Origin: Enterobacter vonholyi
GTDB taxonomy: Bacteria > Pseudomonadota > Gammaproteobacteria > Enterobacterales > Enterobacteriaceae
DNA: 64,000 bases
Assembly: GCF_008364555.1 (NCBI RefSeq)
Contig: NZ_VTUC01000006.1
Coordinates: forward strand, 496,001 to 560,000
Direction: 5' to 3'
Numbering within the stretch: the stretch's first letter is position 1; each line of letters opens with the position of its first letter. The position numbers and the translations under genes were made by a program. This document shows, piece after piece, positions 23,989 through 30,699 of the stretch. Below the pieces are notes generated by a model. The model did no database searches. It was given only the letters and a program-made list of their open reading frames with translations, and was not told the origin of the DNA.

Positions 23989-24276
23989 ATGACTGCACAT
24001 ATTTCCAAAGATCCTTTGCATGGCGTAACGCTGGAGATGATGGTCAACGCCCTGGTGGCGAAATATGGCTGGAGCGAATTGGGCGACCGAATCAAAATTA
24101 ACTGTTTCAGAAAAGACCCCAGCGTTAAATCGAGCCTGAAATTTCTGCGCCGTACCCCGTGGGCGCGCGCGGAGGTCGAAGCCCTGTATCTGGACTCTCT
24201 CGATGATGAGGGAAATACAGAGCAGGCGGCGCCCGCATTTAATCCCTGGGCCAACAGCAGGATTATCAAGAGCTAA
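23989..24276 (+). CDS. VF530-family (DUF2132) small DNA-binding protein
   Basis: A 95-residue protein whose core matches the VF530/DUF2132 family: [20 protein letters not shown] then [29 protein letters not shown] and VEALYLDSL. The family prototype from Vibrio fischeri was studied structurally and suggested to bind DNA; its cellular role is unclear. The C-terminal 25 residues are acidic then hydrophobic and variable. The gene is followed after 7 nt by digH on the same strand, so the two may be cotranscribed. Confidence 0.75.
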
Positions 24277-24283
24277 TACGCAA

Positions 24284-25576
24284 ATGACGCGACACGTAAA
24301 ACGGATTGGTGCGCTGGCTGCCTGCGCACTTTTACTTGTAAGCTGCTCCTCAAAACCACCCAAATCACTGGTTACCCCTCTTCCCACCGTCAATAAACCG
24401 ACGCCGCAGGCAAACGAGCCGATGCGCGGGATCTGGCTGGCGACCGTCTCGCGTCTCGACTGGCCGCCGGTGGCCTCGGTGAATGGCCGCAGCGCGGACC
24501 AGCGCATCGCGATGCAAAAGCAGGCGCTGATTGCAAAGCTCGACAACCTTAAGCAGCTCGGCATCAACACGGTATTTTTCCAGGTGAAGCCGGACAGCAC
24601 GGCGCTCTGGTCATCTAAAATTTTACCGTGGTCAGATATGCTGACAGGCAACATCGGTGAGTATCCGGGATACGATCCGCTGCAGTTTATGCTTGATGAA
24701 GCGCACAGGCGCGGCATGAAGGTCCATGCCTGGTTTAACCCCTATCGCGTATCGACCAACACCAAGCCGTCCACCATCGCCGCCCTTAACCGGACGTCAT
24801 ACCAGACGCCGTCCAGCGTTTATGTCCAGCACCCGGAATGGATCCGCATCTCGGGCGACCGCTTTGTGCTCGACCCGGGTATTCCCGACGTGCGGGACTG
24901 GATAACCAAAGTGGTGACCGAAGTGGTGGCGAACTACCCGGTAGACGGCGTGCAGTTTGATGATTACTTCTATGCCGAATCGCCGGGATCCGCGCTCAAT
25001 GACGCGCAGAGCTGGCGGCAGTACGGCCAGGGGTTTGCCTCAAAAGCCGACTGGCGTAGACACAATACGCAGCAGCTGATTGTCCAGGTCTCCCGCGCGA
25101 TCAAGCAGACAAAGCCCAACGTGGAGTTTGGCGTCAGCCCGGCGGGCGTGTGGCGTAACCGCTCCTTTGACCCGGCAGGCTCCGACACCCGCGGCGCCGC
25201 GGCCTATGATGAATCCTACGCCGATACGCGTCAGTGGGTGCAGCAGGGCCTGCTGGACTACATCGCGCCGCAGATTTACTGGCCCTTCTCCCGGGATGCC
25301 GCGCGCTACGACGTGCTGACCAGATGGTGGGCCGACGTCGTCAAGCCGACCCACACTCGCCTGTATATCGGCATTGCGTTCTATAAGGTGGGCGAGCCGT
25401 CGAAAAAAGAGCCGGACTGGACGGTTCAGGGCGGCGTGCCGGAGCTGAAAAAACAGCTCGATCTCAACGATTCGCTGCCCAACGTCAACGGCACCATCCT
25501 GTTCCGGGAAGATTACCTGAACCAGCCGCAGACCCAGCAGGCGGTAAACTATCTCCGTGGACGCTGGGGTAGCTGA
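24284..25576 (+). CDS. digH: DigH (YddW), glycan-cleaving outer-membrane lipoprotein
   Basis: A 430-residue lipoprotein: MTRHVKRIGALAACALLLVS then C, with lipobox LVSC placing Cys21 at the mature end. The body is the DUF187/GHL10 barrel (ANEPMRGIWLATVSRLDWPP, MKVHAWFNPYRVS, VDGVQFDDYFY, FGVSPAGVWRN, APQIYWPF), strongly like E. coli YddW. That protein, now called DigH, cleaves denuded peptidoglycan glycans and acts with Tol-Pal during cell separation. I chose the ATG at 24284 because it places the lipobox correctly; an upstream ATG at 24203 would bury it. A strong terminator follows. Confidence 0.88.
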   Translation: MTRHVKRIGALAACALLLVSCSSKPPKSLVTPLPTVNKPTPQANEPMRGIWLATVSRLDWPPVASVNGRSADQRIAMQKQALIAKLDNLKQLGINTVFFQVKPDSTALWSSKILPWSDMLTGNIGEYPGYDPLQFMLDEAHRRGMKVHAWFNPYRVSTNTKPSTIAALNRTSYQTPSSVYVQHPEWIRISGDRFVLDPGIPDVRDWITKVVTEVVANYPVDGVQFDDYFYAESPGSALNDAQSWRQYGQGFASKADWRRHNTQQLIVQVSRAIKQTKPNVEFGVSPAGVWRNRSFDPAGSDTRGAAAYDESYADTRQWVQQGLLDYIAPQIYWPFSRDAARYDVLTRWWADVVKPTHTRLYIGIAFYKVGEPSKKEPDWTVQGGVPELKKQLDLNDSLPNVNGTILFREDYLNQPQTQQAVNYLRGRWGS

Positions 25577-25582
25577 GTGACC

Positions 25583-25618
25583 ACCAGGCAGAAACGCCCC
25601 GTTTCTGCCTGGTCTTTT
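25583..25618 (+). terminator. Rho-independent terminator of digH
   Basis: ACCAGGCAGAAACG pairs perfectly with CGTTTCTGCCTGGT around a 3-nt loop, followed by CTTTTAC. It lies between the convergent digH and dsbG genes and touches the dsbG stop. Confidence 0.88.
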
Positions 25619-26375
25619 ACGGCTTCGGCCCGAACATCGCCTCAAGCTGCTGGGCATCCGGCATACCCACCACCTGCTGCAGCTCGTTTTCCGCATTCAG
25701 ATAGTAAATGGCCGGCGTGGCGTTTGCGCCCAGGCTGTCCATCAGCGCCTGATGTTTTTGCAGGATCTCAACCGTTTCGCGAGAAGCGTCCCCTTCAGGC
25801 TTGGGCAGTTTTTTGCCGCCGGAAAGCTCGTATTCGCGCCAGGCAGCAACCGGATCTTTCGCGTTCAGTATAGCGGCGGCGTTGCGTCCGCTGTTGGGGT
25901 TGAGGAACGCCACCAGCAGCGTATTGAGCTGCACCTTACCGGCCTTCACCCACGGCTGCGCCTCGGACCAGAACTGCTTGCAGTACGGACAGAACGGATC
26001 GGCAAAGACAAAGACCTTACGCGGGGCGTTATCCGCCCCTTCCTTCAGGGGATGCGCCGCGTTGAGGTTTTTCCACATCTCGCGTCCCATCGGGGCGTAA
26101 ATCTCTTTCTGGAAGTAGCCCTCGCTGAGGTTCTTCCCTTTGTCATCATAAAGATAGCCTGAGATCACGTGCTTGCCGTCCGGCGTGAGAAAGAGCGTCA
26201 CGCCCATATCCTGATACTGCCCGAGCCAGGCTGGCGCTCCGCCCGGCGCATCCAGCTTCTTGATGATTTTGATCTGCTGCTGCTCGCTGAACTGCTTCAC
26301 CACGTCCGGTATGGCTTCAGCCGCCTGTACCAGCCCTGACGTCGCCAGCGCCGAAAGTAACAGTAATTTTTTCAT
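25617..26375 (-). CDS. dsbG: DsbG, periplasmic disulfide isomerase / sulfenic-acid reductase
   Basis: A 252-residue protein with a signal peptide (MKKLLLLSALATSGLVQA), an N-terminal dimerisation domain (about 25-100), a helical linker and a thioredoxin-fold domain with the active site FADPFCPYCKQF and the cis-proline loop NATPAIYYLN (Thr before Pro, as in DsbG). Length agrees with E. coli DsbG (248). DsbG protects single cysteines from sulfenylation and is reduced by DsbD. In E. coli dsbG sits near ahpCF; here it follows scsC on the same strand by 41 nt, so it may take the thiol-reductant electrons delivered by ScsB. Confidence 0.88.
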   Translation of the reverse strand: MKKLLLLSALATSGLVQAAEAIPDVVKQFSEQQQIKIIKKLDAPGGAPAWLGQYQDMGVTLFLTPDGKHVISGYLYDDKGKNLSEGYFQKEIYAPMGREMWKNLNAAHPLKEGADNAPRKVFVFADPFCPYCKQFWSEAQPWVKAGKVQLNTLLVAFLNPNSGRNAAAILNAKDPVAAWREYELSGGKKLPKPEGDASRETVEILQKHQALMDSLGANATPAIYYLNAENELQQVVGMPDAQQLEAMFGPKP

Positions 26376-26416
26376 TTCCCTCTCCGGTTTATCGGGGGCA
26401 TTACGCCCCCTTCAGG

Positions 26417-27028
26417 TTAGCGGTTTTTCAGTGCTTCACTGACCATTTCGTCGAACTGTTCGAACGGCACCCAGCCGGGAAGCAATCCCTCGCCGATAAG
26501 CGTGGCGGGCGTGCCCTGGATCCCCATTTTTTCCGCCACAATGAGGCTTCGCCTGATCGTCAGAAAACTCTCCTCATCCGGCGTCGTCACGCTCACGCCC
26601 GCCCGCTTTTGCGCCTCCTGAATGCTGGCGTCATCGTGGTACCCCTTTTTCGCCATCAGGGTATGGTTCAGCTTCATAAACTGCTCAGGATGCGCACGCC
26701 AGACGGTTAACGCGTCTCGTGCGGCGGTCAGCGAACTTTCCGAGCGGAAAGGTAAAAACTTAAAGACCACCGCCACGTCCGGGTGTTTTTCGACAATCTT
26801 CTCCAGGTACGGATCGAATTTTTTACAGTACGGGCAGTTGTAGTCGGTAAACACCACCAGGGTGAGCTTTGGGTTTTTCGCACCGATGCGCGGGGAGTTC
26901 GGATCGTTAAACAGGAAATCAGCGATCATCTTTTGCGCACGCTGCTCCTGGTCCGGCGTCAGCGGCTGCGCGGCGAATACCTGAAGCGGGGCCAGCAGGA
27001 GCAGCAGCGTAATAAAGAGTTTTTTCAT
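26417..27028 (-). CDS. scsC: ScsC, periplasmic DsbA-like thiol oxidoreductase (copper stress)
   Basis: A 203-residue protein with a signal peptide (MKKLFITLLLLLAPLQVFA) and a DsbA-type thioredoxin fold interrupted by a helical insert. The active site is CPYC in VFTDYNCPYCKKFDPY and the cis-Pro loop is QGTPATLIG. The length fits the monomeric Salmonella ScsC rather than the longer trimeric Proteus form. ScsC is kept reduced by ScsB and protects periplasmic thiols from copper or oxidants. The scsB stop lies 7 nt upstream of its ATG, and dsbG follows. Confidence 0.85.
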   Translation of the reverse strand: MKKLFITLLLLLAPLQVFAAQPLTPDQEQRAQKMIADFLFNDPNSPRIGAKNPKLTLVVFTDYNCPYCKKFDPYLEKIVEKHPDVAVVFKFLPFRSESSLTAARDALTVWRAHPEQFMKLNHTLMAKKGYHDDASIQEAQKRAGVSVTTPDEESFLTIRRSLIVAEKMGIQGTPATLIGEGLLPGWVPFEQFDEMVSEALKNR

Positions 27029-27035
27029 GACACAG

Positions 27036-29060
27036 TTAGCCTTTTGCGTTGTTCAGGGTGGTGACCAGGGTGCGCTTGTCCAGCAGCGGCGAGAGGATCT
27101 CGCCATCAGGCTGGCCGGGGCCATACACCGCGTTAAACGGAATGGCGTAGCGGTTTCGCTTCGTCAGAAAATCCGCGATAAACGCGGACGGCTGGCTCCA
27201 GTCTCCGCGCAGGGCCACCACGTCCGGCTGGCGCAGCGCGGCAATCACGTCCGGCTGGCTGAGCACCCGATGCTCGTTAACTTTGCAGGTCACGCACCAG
27301 TCCGCGGAAATATCCACAAACACCCGTTTCCCCTGCGCCAGCGCGTTCTCGATAGCCTTTTCACTGAGCGGCTGCCACGGGATAGTCTGCGCAACGTTTT
27401 GTGCCGGAGCGTCAGGCGCCGCGTTAAGCAGACCGCGCACCTGATACCCGCCGAACGCCGACAGCGCGATGACCACCAGCCAGAACAGCGGCGAAGATTT
27501 TTGCCCCTTTAGCGCAAACAGCACCAGCGCGACGGCAGTCAGCCCCAGCATCACGATCTGGCTGACCGCCTCGCCCAGATGCACGCTCAACAGCGTCGCC
27601 AGCCAGAGGCTGGAGGCCAGCATCATCAGGCCGAGGATGACCTTGAGCGTGTTCATCCAGCGGCCGGGTTTTGGCAGCAGCATGGCCGTTTTCGGCACCA
27701 GGGCAACGAACAGCCACGGCAGGCTCATGCCCACGCCCAGCATCAGGAAGATAAGCCACAGGGCGTGCAGCGGCGCGCCAAGGGCAAAGGCGACCGCGGT
27801 ACCGAGGAACGGCGCGGAGCACGGCGTCGCCAGCAGAGTGGCGAACATCCCTTCGCAAAAGCTGCCGCCGATCCCCGATCCCCCTGCCGTCGCCAGCCGT
27901 CCTGCGGCAGAAGAAGGCAGCAGCATTTCAAATGCTCCAAACAGGTTCTGCGCAAACAGGAAGGTCACGGCGACCATCAGGCCGATAAACCACGGGTTCT
28001 GGAACTGAATGCCCCACCCCAGCGACGCTCCGGCCAGCTTCAGCGCGGTGACCATCCCGGCCAGCAGCATAAAGGAGGTGAGGATCCCGGCGCTGGTGGC
28101 GAAGAAGCGTAGCCGGATGGTACGCCTGTCCGATCCCGCCTGAAGGATGCTGTTAAGCTTCATGCCCATCACCGGCAGCACGCAGGGCATCAGGTTCAGG
28201 ATCAGCCCGCCCAGCAGCGCAAAGAGCACCATTTTTCCCGTCCCGCCCGGCGCGGAGGTCTCTTCGGGCGTTGTCCCAACGGTCATGGTGGTTTGCTGCG
28301 CCCGATCGCCGTTGGTCAGCACAAACGACAGCCTTTTGCCTGCCAGCGAGGCGGGTTTGTCTCCCCATTCGTCGGTCACGGGTACCGTCACCCGAAGCGC
28401 AGTGCCGTCATGTTTAATAACCGGCTCGCCGGGCAGAATATCGCCCTCCAGCGGATCAAAGTAGATCCCCGGATTGTCCCATTTCCCATCCGTGGTGCCG
28501 GTAATCACCAGCTTGTCGCCAGAGAGCCAGGCGGAGAGATCCGTGGATACGCCAGACGTGCCTGGAACGGCGCGCATCGCTTGCTCGAAGTCGCTGCGGA
28601 AGCCCTCATCCACCGGCTGGGTAAAATCGAGATGCAGCGGGTAGTCCGTCAGCAGGCAGACGTTGCTGCACGTAGAGAGCGTCAGCGTCCCATCGAGCGT
28701 GTCGCCCTTCACCCCGTCGAGAACGATCGGGATAGTGACCTTATCGTGATAGCCCTGCGTCGTCATGCCGGAGATATCGAAACGCGACGGAACCGGCCAG
28801 GACCAGCTGTCCGTTATGCCGTCCGGCCAGCTGATTTTCGGCGCCACGCCGCCCTCGCCCGGCGATCGCCAGTAGGTTTTCCAGCCGGGCTTTAGCTCAA
28901 CGGTGAGCAGACCCTTAATGTGCGTTTGTTCCCTCTCCGCCTGAAAGCGGATGCGGGCGTGATCGTTTTGTGGGGAGACCAGCCAGCCGGTGTCCGCCGC
29001 ATGGACAATGCCAATGCAGGACAGCCACAGGAAGACGAATCCCCTGAAGAGGTTAACCAT
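27036..29060 (-). CDS. scsB: ScsB, DsbD-like transmembrane thiol reductant transporter
   Basis: A 674-residue three-part protein. Signal peptide (ends VHA), a long N-terminal periplasmic domain (about 20-270), an eight-helix membrane domain with the redox cysteines in MPCVLPVMG and ATPCSAPFLG, and a C-terminal thioredoxin domain with DWCVTCKVNE. This is the ScsB arrangement: it carries electrons from cytoplasmic thioredoxin across the membrane to ScsC. It is the second gene of a scsA-scsB-scsC-dsbG row, 48 nt after scsA. Confidence 0.9.
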   Translation of the reverse strand: MVNLFRGFVFLWLSCIGIVHAADTGWLVSPQNDHARIRFQAEREQTHIKGLLTVELKPGWKTYWRSPGEGGVAPKISWPDGITDSWSWPVPSRFDISGMTTQGYHDKVTIPIVLDGVKGDTLDGTLTLSTCSNVCLLTDYPLHLDFTQPVDEGFRSDFEQAMRAVPGTSGVSTDLSAWLSGDKLVITGTTDGKWDNPGIYFDPLEGDILPGEPVIKHDGTALRVTVPVTDEWGDKPASLAGKRLSFVLTNGDRAQQTTMTVGTTPEETSAPGGTGKMVLFALLGGLILNLMPCVLPVMGMKLNSILQAGSDRRTIRLRFFATSAGILTSFMLLAGMVTALKLAGASLGWGIQFQNPWFIGLMVAVTFLFAQNLFGAFEMLLPSSAAGRLATAGGSGIGGSFCEGMFATLLATPCSAPFLGTAVAFALGAPLHALWLIFLMLGVGMSLPWLFVALVPKTAMLLPKPGRWMNTLKVILGLMMLASSLWLATLLSVHLGEAVSQIVMLGLTAVALVLFALKGQKSSPLFWLVVIALSAFGGYQVRGLLNAAPDAPAQNVAQTIPWQPLSEKAIENALAQGKRVFVDISADWCVTCKVNEHRVLSQPDVIAALRQPDVVALRGDWSQPSAFIADFLTKRNRYAIPFNAVYGPGQPDGEILSPLLDKRTLVTTLNNAKG

Positions 29061-29108
29061 GTTGTACTCCGTGAACAGTGAAAAATTATCGTGTGAGGAC
29101 GATGTTTA

Positions 29109-29477
29109 TCATTCACGGAAAACGCAGTTTTTCAGGTGTATTCGGGGAGGCGGTGCCTGAACGGGCTGTTCCGCGGGAGCCAGTGCCCGCCCTTGCGTAA
29201 ACAGCTGCAGCAGCGCGAAGAAGATAATAATGGCCGGTAACGCACCGTCGAAGAACAGCGGCTGGGCGCAGAGAAGCGAGTGAGCGCCTAGCTGACAGGG
29301 CGATGGCCCGGACTGCTCGGTGCTGGTTTGCGTTGGGGCATCAGCACTCAGAGAAATCTGCGGATCCAGTCCCTGTAAAAAATGGTTGAGCATCACCGCA
29401 CGCTGCACGAGGCAAAGCGCCATCGCAAGACAGGTGATAATCAAAAGCCATTTTCCGAGGAGCTGACGGTTGCGCAT
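29109..29477 (-). CDS. scsA: ScsA-like small membrane protein, copper tolerance locus
   Basis: A 122-residue protein with an N-terminal membrane segment (about 10-32), a Cys pair in SPCQLGAHSLLCAQ, a second membrane segment (about 80-98) and the tail PPPRIHLKNCVFRE. Size (Salmonella ScsA is about 120), membrane layout and position directly before scsB support ScsA. Its biochemical role is not established; it is associated with copper and peroxide tolerance. I chose ATG 29477; an in-frame TTG at 29495 would add six residues. Confidence 0.7.
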   Translation of the reverse strand: MRNRQLLGKWLLIITCLAMALCLVQRAVMLNHFLQGLDPQISLSADAPTQTSTEQSGPSPCQLGAHSLLCAQPLFFDGALPAIIIFFALLQLFTQGRALAPAEQPVQAPPPRIHLKNCVFRE

Positions 29478-29564
29478 AACATTCCAGAGTGACAAGACGC
29501 CCCGATCATAAACGATAGTGATGAATCTACAAGTGCCGGAAGTGTAAGGTTTTGTCTGTCGCCG

Positions 29565-30134
29565 CTATTCGCCCGTCAGCGCGTCATAGACGTCCCGCAG
29601 CCGCGTGCGCAGAAACAGCACCGCCTTGTGCTTGCGGGATAACAGCGCCTGTTCGCTGGCGCCGGTCTCCTCTGCCAGCATTTTGATGCTGTAGCCGTGG
29701 AGCTCGGTCTTTTCAAATACCTCCCGCTGCGGCGGAGGAAGTTCAGACAGCGCCTGCCCCAGTTCTTCCCACAGCAGCGTCTTGAGGTACTCCTCTTCCG
29801 GCGTGTGCGGTACGCCGAACAGGGTTTCGGCCAGCTCGTCTTCCGGAAAACCCTCGTCGTCTTCGCCCGTAAAATAGCCGGAGAGCGACACCTCACGCTT
29901 TTTGCGCGCCCGGTCGGTCATCTCGTTACGCGCCGCGCGGAACAGCCAGGCGGCGACGTTTTCGACCGGCTGCTCCACTTTCATCAGCTGATACGTCACT
30001 TCCTGCAAAATGTCGTCGGCATCATCGCGCACGGAGATCCGTCCGCGAATGAAGGCTTTCAGCCGGGCGCGGCAGGCATTGAGCGCCGACATCAGCATGG
30101 ATCCGCCCGTCTCCCCGGCTTTCATCTCGCTCAC
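29565..30134 (-). CDS. ECF-type RNA polymerase sigma factor
   Basis: A 189-residue sigma-70 family protein with only regions 2 and 4. Region 2 includes DDADDILQEVTYQLMKV and VENVAAWLFRAARNEMTD; region 4 includes ELPPPQREVFEKTELHG and SIKMLAEETGASEQALLSRK. An acidic linker (GEDDEGFPEDELAETLFG) joins them. It is coupled by a 4-nt overlap to the upstream His-rich membrane protein gene, the usual place for an anti-sigma or sensor. The scsA gene lies about 90 nt downstream on the same strand, so the scs genes are a plausible part of its regulon. Confidence 0.85.
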   Translation of the reverse strand: MSEMKAGETGGSMLMSALNACRARLKAFIRGRISVRDDADDILQEVTYQLMKVEQPVENVAAWLFRAARNEMTDRARKKREVSLSGYFTGEDDEGFPEDELAETLFGVPHTPEEEYLKTLLWEELGQALSELPPPQREVFEKTELHGYSIKMLAEETGASEQALLSRKHKAVLFLRTRLRDVYDALTGE

Positions 30135-30550
30135 TCTGCATCCGGCGCTTTTGGCGTGGCTTCATCGCGCTTATCGTCACGATGACCGTGCCAGCCGCAG
30201 TGCCCGCGACCGTGGCGACCAAACCCTTCGCGACGCTGCTGAATAAACGCCTCGCGCTGTTCGGGCGTCATGTTCATCCAGCGCTCGTGCATCCGGCGGT
30301 GCGCGCCAAACATCCCGGGGCGGAAACCTAAGCCGCCAAACAGAATGCGGCTCAGCACCAGAATGCCCAGCGCCTGCCAGAATCCGATGGCCTTCACGCC
30401 CAGGATCGCCGGGAGCAAGGCGTTCCACAGGGACATCACCAGCAGGCCGAGCACGATGAAAATCACCGCGCCGATGACTAAGCCCTTGCCCATACGGTGA
30501 CGACCGAATCCGCGCCCGTGACCTCTGCCGTGCATTTCAAAATCTCTCAT
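30131..30550 (-). CDS. His-rich small membrane protein, candidate metal sensor/anti-sigma
   Basis: A 139-residue protein with a basic, His/Gly-rich start (MHGRGHGRGFGRHRMGKG), two hydrophobic segments (about 22-42 and 54-74), then MTPEQREAFIQQRREGFGRH followed by another His-rich stretch. The MTPEQR phrase is reminiscent of Spy/ZraP-like metal-responsive proteins, but there is no signal peptide. It comes first in the operon, with the ECF sigma ATG overlapping its stop (ATGA). I infer that it senses a metal and holds the sigma factor, but it does not match a defined anti-sigma family that I recognise. Confidence 0.6.
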   Translation of the reverse strand: MRDFEMHGRGHGRGFGRHRMGKGLVIGAVIFIVLGLLVMSLWNALLPAILGVKAIGFWQALGILVLSRILFGGLGFRPGMFGAHRRMHERWMNMTPEQREAFIQQRREGFGRHGRGHCGWHGHRDDKRDEATPKAPDAE

Positions 30551-30699
30551 GGTGTTTACCTCGTTTACAGTAACTGATTATGGCTTGTGATGAGGTAGAC
30601 GGATGAGGGAGGCAAATATTGCTTGGGGGAATGAATAATTTTGCGGGGAGCGTATTTTCACACGCCCCGTGAAAGCCATTGCTGGCGCTTGTTCACCGT

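Follow-up and report, generated by a model that had tools for sequence, protein, structure and literature searches.

A conserved scsABC-dsbG operon of Enterobacter vonholyi and the probably self-contained ECF sigma factor pair beside it

In Enterobacter vonholyi a gene for an extracytoplasmic function (ECF) sigma factor and one for a histidine-rich membrane protein lie directly ahead of scsA, scsB, scsC and dsbG, in positions 496,001 to 560,000 of contig NZ_VTUC01000006.1 (the 64 000 nucleotides (nt) that we analyzed, called the window below). Such a locus raises the question of whether the sigma factor is the switch of its neighbors and what dsbG does in the place that scsD takes in scsABCD. 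A first-pass annotation had proposed that the histidine-rich protein senses metal and that the sigma factor drives the thiol-repair genes. Our analysis points to another answer: the locus probably consists of two independent modules lying side by side, a sigma factor pair that regulates itself and a periplasmic thiol-repair operon, scsA-scsB-scsC-dsbG (the cassette), that has its own promoter, with a ScsD homologue encoded in trans.

We confirmed all six open reading frames (ORFs) of the locus on the minus strand at the coordinates annotated before, and coordinates and families agree with the gene order read then. The histidine-rich gene (30131-30550) encodes a two-helix membrane protein of 139 amino acids (aa) from an unnamed family, which from its ORF and family alignment is probably an anti-sigma-like regulator of the ECF sigma factor. 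Its stop codon and the GTG start of the sigma gene (29565-30134, 189 aa) overlap by 4 nt, which makes the translational coupling suggested by the first-pass annotation plausible. The sigma protein matches Pfam Sigma70_r2 and Sigma70_r4_2 above the cut-offs as well as TIGR02937 and ECF sigma factors in the PDB, and it has the ECF composition of regions 2 and 4 only in about 190 aa. A gap of 87 nt separates its stop from the ATG of the scsA-like gene on the same strand (29109-29477, 122 aa from the ATG; the frame also offers a TTG start at 29495), which we named after its position and its C-terminal CVFRE, as in scsA of two scsABCD loci (L235 and L236; G and L numbers are our handles for genomes and loci). 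At a threshold of E 0.001, Pfam and NCBIfam contain no model that matches the scsA-like or the histidine-rich protein. ScsB (27036-29060, 674 aa) is a DsbD-like membrane reductase with the three parts expected of it, an N-terminal DsbD-like domain, a membrane domain and a thioredoxin domain (Pfam DsbD_N, DsbD_TM and Thioredoxin_7), and the gene of the periplasmic thioredoxin-fold protein ScsC (26417-27028, 203 aa; Pfam DSBA; PDB 4gxz at E 1.6e-68) adjoins it as in other scs loci. The final cassette gene, in the scsD position, is dsbG (25617-26375, 252 aa): its product contains PF10411 and PF13098, scores 339 bits with the NCBIfam equivalog model NF008657 (cut-off 124) and matches PDB 1v57 at E 1.9e-85. 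With dsbG and not scsD as the fourth gene, the operon is a variant and not scsABCD proper.

The scs-dsbG arrangement is real and conserved and not a product of chance. We analyzed 60 genomes of the genus, sampled evenly from a larger group and including the genome of the window (G000), counting the sigma factor as present at E 1e-97 or better (two weaker matches were excluded) and not counting distant DsbD-like matches (about 30-35%) as ScsB. In 19 of the 60 genomes, the window's included, sigma, scsB and dsbG share this order in a span of about 5 kb, and 9 of the other 18 were mapped with all six genes (L177-L185). Close sigma relatives occur in 28 genomes. The cassette is present in 24 (in one, G162, without scsC), while classical scsABCD was found in 22, with a ScsB 49-53% identical to that of the window and with the two genes for ScsB and ScsD some 0.6 kb apart in every case. 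A diverged scsAB-dsbG, with a ScsB of 45-46% identity and dsbG directly behind, occurs in 9 genomes (scsA was seen in both mapped loci, L211 and L212, and the G202 copy is in pieces), and 5 genomes have none of the three types. The position of dsbG noticed in the first-pass annotation is hence shared across genus genomes. The three types are mutually exclusive: no genome of the 60 carries two of them, and for scsABC-dsbG against scsABCD the exclusion gives a Fisher p=3e-7 with relatedness ignored.

The sigma pair and the scs genes come and go separately. The 28 sigma-bearing genomes comprise 19 with scsABC-dsbG, 8 with scsABCD and 1 with none, so that 9 of them lack the cassette; the 32 genomes without sigma comprise 5 with scsABC-dsbG, 14 with scsABCD, 9 with scsAB-dsbG and 4 with none, so that 5 of the 24 cassette genomes lack the sigma factor. 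Gene maps of 60 loci, fetched both within the genus and across its wider family, show a common site ahead of a convergent gene and usually behind a chemoreceptor-like gene: dsbG stays there, and either, both or neither of sigma pair and scsABC is present at it. In two genomes (G153 and G203; L193 and L194) other genes lie between sigma and dsbG, where the window has scsABC. Both have a 194-residue gene there, the L194 copy being cytochrome b561-like, and L194 alone also a VIT-family transporter gene.

The probable target of the sigma factor can be read from a promoter motif. An ECF-type promoter, GCAATATT-N7-CTCATCCGTCTAC, lies at 30595-30622 on the minus strand, 5' of the histidine-rich gene. 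Across 33 aligned upstream regions of this gene it is nearly invariant, as GCAATATT-N7-CTCAT(C/T)CGTCTAC, with little else conserved and single-base departures in some loci (among them L221, L222, L224-L226, L229 and L231). CGTC is typical of ECF -10 elements, and motif and conservation together mark this as the predicted promoter of the sigma operon. The first-pass annotation had suggested a search for a motif shared by the regions upstream of 30550 and 29477; in the window we found it only 5' of 30550 and not at scsA or dsbG, the promoter of scsA being sigma-70-like. In the window's genome it is the single site at up to 3 mismatches. A strict scan (0-2 mismatches) covered 55 genomes, 45 with and 10 without sigma; two sigma-bearing genomes of the genus (G151 and G197) and one with a broken pair (G028) stood outside it. 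The site was observed 5' of the sigma operon in all 45 sigma-bearing genomes and nowhere else in 44 of them, and at up to 2 mismatches in none of the 10 others, 4 of which also contain 3-mismatch sites. In G447, from another family, the promoter stands directly before sigma. These findings make it most likely that the two-gene operon of the sigma factor is all that it controls; it would be a neighbor, not the switch, of scs.

Three observations on the motif may be added. Among the 45 sigma-bearing genomes only G070 has another site within 2 mismatches, a near-perfect one (L269, G070:C6:114253-114279) some 110 nt 5' of a transporter-like gene of 430 residues. In G014 (L270) the sigma pair is decayed and the ECF promoter is still present with zero mismatches. 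A larger sigma regulon was considered and rejected: among the matches listed, the looser motif was found less often than a reversed-pattern control in each of 16 genomes.

Besides its promoter, the sigma factor keeps its partner over a wide range of bacteria. In a class survey of 320 genomes besides the window's, only G447 has a sigma relative at E 1e-12. A sigma profile search of named genomes gave at least 194 relatives, and the best 80 of them come, by their titles, mostly from Bacteroidota, but also from Paraburkholderia, Treponema and others. A profile of the partner found it in 79 of these best 80 loci (the exception is L338), in two Treponema loci about 2 kb from sigma. Since the partner accompanies sigma in nearly all of them, the sigma factor with its two-helix partner is, as far as sequence comparison can tell, an old self-contained module. 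In a metagenome-assembled genome of the Porphyromonadaceae (L303:231-1025) partner and sigma share one open frame of 264 residues as if fused, possibly as an assembly artefact. In 14 loci (L292, L293, L299, L300, L302, L322, L328, L337, L340, L343, L345, L346, L348 and L358) a gene for a protein of about 70-86 residues follows 3' of the pair, and one of these small proteins shows a sub-threshold likeness to the heavy-metal-associated domain (PF00403, E 0.16).

Within the partner, the conserved parts are a hairpin of membrane helices and, C-terminally, a charged helix, seen in the alignment as the core LWNALLP...IGFWQALG.L.L.RILFGG and a following region with MTPEQR. The predicted structure has two long and two short helices at low confidence, with a mean predicted local distance difference test (pLDDT) of 58, and its best match among solved structures, at E 0.039, was taken as chance. 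No anti-sigma domain was found: the window protein has no Pfam match, and 22 relatives matched 7 Pfam families, with one or two proteins per family (the best match, at E 1.3e-4, is to an abhydrolase N-terminus) and no anti-sigma family among them. This last result would also suit a histidine-rich protein that is itself the effector, a membrane metal-binding or stress protein, with a sigma factor that only amplifies and is not restrained by it, and so would the strict motif preceding this operon alone in 44 of 45 sigma-bearing genomes. We nevertheless consider an effector role rather doubtful, as what is conserved is the hairpin and the charged helix and not a metal site, and as sigma comes first in 52 and the partner in 13 of 65 loci outside Enterobacterales (placed by script; 8 more were dropped with an unclear sigma ORF). 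Sigma-first order is common for sigma/anti-sigma pairs.

The histidines also bear on metal sensing by two histidine-rich ends, as claimed in the first-pass annotation. Both ends are histidine-rich in the window protein, but the N-terminal stretch is absent in L230, L232 and L233. Among 22 family members we found no invariant histidine column (H117 in the tail is kept in 90% or more), and thus not the conserved histidine ligand by which a metal-sensing regulator would be recognized. Outside Enterobacterales the tails contain 4.1% histidine against a background of 2.1%, about a twofold enrichment; counted without the L303 fusion, 25 of 72 tails have at least three histidines and 54 of 72 a cysteine, for which a redox or metal role would be a guess. 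Metal sensing is weakened by these data.

The scs genes, in turn, have a probable promoter of their own between the sigma stop and scsA (29505-29556, minus strand). It consists of a box, GACAAAACCTTACA (29556-29543), and of the hexamers TTGTAG (29532-29527) and TATGAT (29510-29505) at a spacing of 16 nt. It could be aligned in all 15 mapped scsABC-dsbG loci and the window, with the box one base off in L196 and different hexamers in L197, L198 and L213. It is also recognizable in all six cassette loci without adjacent sigma, namely in five sigma-less genomes and in G142 (L213), where sigma lies on another contig. A generic sigma-70 scan does not list this promoter because its first hexamer is poor; poor first hexamers are common at activated promoters. 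A box of the form CAGAC-N5-YTTACA (one mismatch allowed in CAGAC) precedes scsA in 15 of 36 mostly classical rows, compared with a mean of 0.05 and a largest value of 1 in 500 shuffles; the rows contain two genomes twice and one scsABC-dsbG locus, and 21 of them are without the box in this form. The CpxR box is given as GTAAA-N5-6-GTAAA in PMC9600279; no full copy was found at scsA of the window, where by eye one half resembles it. In Salmonella scsA and scsBCD form two transcription units, according to PMC3672137, and PMC11790278 reports that the Cpx response raises scsABCD. Because of the shared upstream box, the Salmonella units and the Cpx report, we regard a Cpx-like activator of scs as more likely than the ECF sigma factor. 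A promoter-like match directly 5' of scsB (ATGATA-16-GATAAT, 29085-29112) would fit separate scsA and scsBC units as in Salmonella; the scanned region contains 3 such matches, compared with 1.3 (standard deviation 1.3) in shuffles.

How, then, could the sigma factor still drive the cassette? Metal bound to the histidine-rich protein would free sigma, and transcription from 30595-30622 would have to read through into scsABC-dsbG, since an ECF promoter was not found at scsA. The common strand, the short gap, the adjacency in 19 of 60 genomes and a copper role of scs in Salmonella (PMC3672137) are in line with this chain of events. It is nonetheless unlikely: scsA has its own promoter, also where sigma is absent, 9 of 28 sigma-bearing genomes have the pair without the cassette, in other genera the gene next to the pair is convergent (for example L217 and L219-L222), the N-terminal histidines are not conserved and the tail histidines are only about twofold enriched outside Enterobacterales. 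Sigma control of the thiol-repair genes is thus not supported in the form first proposed, as the scsA promoter is kept without sigma and the modules are separable.

Several points weigh against two independent modules. The largest risk is that read-through from the ECF promoter into scs takes place where the two are adjacent, which is possible because our scan found no terminator-like site between sigma and scsA and because sigma and cassette co-occur, with scsABC-dsbG in 19 of 28 sigma-bearing but 5 of 32 other genomes (p=5e-5, relatedness ignored). The hexamers of the scsA promoter are poor and vary in three loci, and a diverged ECF target motif would escape the scan. The anti-sigma role of the partner is probable, but we infer it for a protein without a known domain and with a model of the low pLDDT given above, and reduction of DsbG by ScsB is likewise something that we infer.

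The presence of dsbG behind scs has a history that trees and maps partly reveal. In a DsbG tree of 58 rows, made with a quick method, the copies linked to ahpC group together (21 rows, support 99 in the Shimodaira–Hasegawa-like approximate likelihood ratio test, SH-aLRT), and a second group holds the genus copies at the convergent-gene site together with the G142 cassette copy (25 rows, 100). A third group (6 rows, 100) contains the copies linked to scsAB, which make up 3 of its rows and include 2 of the 9 genus scsAB-dsbG genomes. In the ScsB tree (49 rows) the scsABC-dsbG copies cluster together (12 rows, 100), apart from the scsAB-dsbG copies, which form a group of their own (3 rows, 100) on a long branch, at a point where long branches meet. 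The groups suggest that dsbG joined scs on two separate occasions. However, a single joining was not rejected in the approximately unbiased (AU) test by DsbG (p-AU 0.265) or by ScsB (p-AU 0.219, and 0.308 with L035 added, on 30 of the 49 rows), and with the one-joining tree passing (p 0.22-0.31) we make no claim of two joinings.

The maps show intermediate situations. Without scs, dsbG occupies the same site in 16 mapped loci (L186-L194, L200-L206 and others), in G027 (L085) it lies directly behind scsA, and in G142 (L213) scsABC and dsbG are found together at a different site. Two loci whose genomes carry scsABCD elsewhere (L200 and L208, in G189 and G177) have a recognizable copy of the scsA promoter directly 5' of dsbG, each alignment being reached by 0 of 500 single-base shuffles, from which it follows that dsbG can stay under a promoter of the scs type without scsABC; L201, a locus of the same kind, shows no such match before dsbG (24 of 500 shuffles reach its score). 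In L202-L204 the 73-76 nt before dsbG match the end of the L187 sigma gene (about the last 20 nt, stop included) and the sequence behind it, as expected if the sigma pair was lost; no such match was found before dsbG in L205 and L207. That dsbG is a passenger, a resident in front of which scsABC landed without any joint function, is quite unlikely, for although its occurrence at this site without scs in the 16 loci would fit, the cassette stands together at another site in G142, a deeply diverged DsbG lies directly behind scsAB in another lineage and dsbG keeps the scs-type promoter in two genomes without scsABC.

The loss of scsD concerns the operon only. Applying the ScsD of G144 as query (E 1e-10) to the 60 genus genomes, we found a homologue in 46: in the 22 scsABCD genomes it lies in the operon, in every one of the 24 genomes with scsABC-dsbG it is located far away, with 53-60% identity to the query, and the remaining 14 genomes have none. 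In the window's genome it is located at G000:C33:389067-389555, with 55% identity to this classical ScsD. With a homologue at another locus in all 24, what had been described as a missing scsD is true of the operon but not of the genome and amounts to relocation. The first-pass annotation had held that scsD elsewhere combined with an unconserved dsbG position would refute it; scsD does lie elsewhere, and the position of dsbG is conserved. The orphan scsD is flanked by the same two genes, which we take to be an aminotransferase and a decarboxylase gene, in all eight neighborhoods fetched from the 24 genomes (L272-L279); by coordinates it lies away from scsB there, and scsA and scsC were not searched for at these places. 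In L280 (G180, an scsABCD genome) a broken second scsD copy was observed at the orphan scsD place. The orphan, evident as a homologue, may act as a ScsD supplied in trans, or orphan ScsD and cassette could simply be marks of one lineage.

Taken together, these results suggest how the two modules would work side by side. The partner most likely keeps sigma inactive at the membrane, and freed sigma would turn on its own promoter at 30595-30622. The genes scsA, scsB, scsC and dsbG would be transcribed from the sigma-70-type promoter just 5' of scsA, where an activator similar to that of scsABCD probably acts. ScsB would carry electrons from the cytoplasm to ScsC and, to judge from the place of dsbG in the operon, probably also feeds DsbG, which by its family may repair wrong disulfides or oxidized cysteines under copper or oxidative stress. 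For Proteus, Salmonella and Caulobacter, reduction of ScsC by ScsB is stated in PMC8900818, which also states that little is known about ScsA and ScsD.

A wider proposal is tentative and somewhat less than even in our judgment. In both of the deeply diverged scs lineages with dsbG, whether that gene joined scs once or twice, DsbG might be a dedicated ScsB client that has displaced scsD from its operon and, in one of the lineages, scsC too, so that the ScsB pathway would feed an isomerase or sulfenic-acid reductase; the sigma factor might represent an ECF class not described before, found in several phyla, whose membrane partner is a minimal two-helix protein that often has a tail cysteine and whose sole strict target is its own operon. 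Three alternative scs operons that were never found together in a genome of this genus, one with ScsD and two with DsbG, provide a natural experiment on what ScsB serves. Adjacency of a sigma factor can mislead where the pair is an old self-contained unit, and the predicted ECF promoter is exact enough to search for, so that the sigma class is directly testable.

The remaining features lie around dsbG. A hairpin without a T run between scsC and dsbG (26394-26410, minus strand) is weak (fold z -1.4), and by eye a G/C-rich inverted repeat is seen 5' of dsbG in 14 of 15 cassette loci and the window. A hairpin with a 14-pair stem in the gap between dsbG and the convergent gene (25583-25613, minus strand; fold z -4.3) is a possible transcript end; it has no T run and was therefore not listed by the terminator scan. 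The convergent gene beyond dsbG occupies 24203-25576. Spread of the cassette by plasmids was considered and rejected: coverage of the query stayed under 80% in every plasmid record, and none of the 306 best ScsB matches attained 60% identity. In E. coli we found no megablast match.

Among the papers listed from a limited open-access library, judged by title and opening abstract, we found no description of dsbG in an scs locus or of this sigma pair. The locus can be compared with four known systems. With ECF sigma factors and their membrane anti-sigma factors it shares the restriction to domains 2 and 4, the own promoter motif and a membrane partner encoded alongside, but the partner here is without a known anti-sigma domain and is modeled as a two-helix hairpin with short helices. 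Systems of the CnrYXH type likewise join an ECF sigma factor to a possibly metal-binding partner, and the PDB relatives include CnrH (E 4.5e-6), although SigL, SigH, RpoE and others match better. The Cnr system consists of three genes, whereas here there are two and no periplasmic sensor domain was seen. Compared with DsbG and DsbD of E. coli, the window protein is DsbG proper (1v57 is the thiol:disulfide interchange protein DsbG), and its DsbD-like operon partner is ScsB. The E. coli dsbG adjoins ahpC; ahpC-linked copies form a separate group in our tree, which has no E. coli row, and here dsbG is linked to scs instead. The fourth system is Salmonella scsABCD (suppressor of copper sensitivity): order and families of scsA, scsB and scsC are the same, the best solved relative of the window's ScsC (4gxz) is a suppression of copper sensitivity protein, and a similar box stands upstream of scsA in scsABCD loci. 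The differences are a ScsB of 49-53% identity to scsABCD copies, as compared within the genus and not with Salmonella sequences, and a fourth gene that is dsbG here, with ScsD encoded elsewhere as an orphan.

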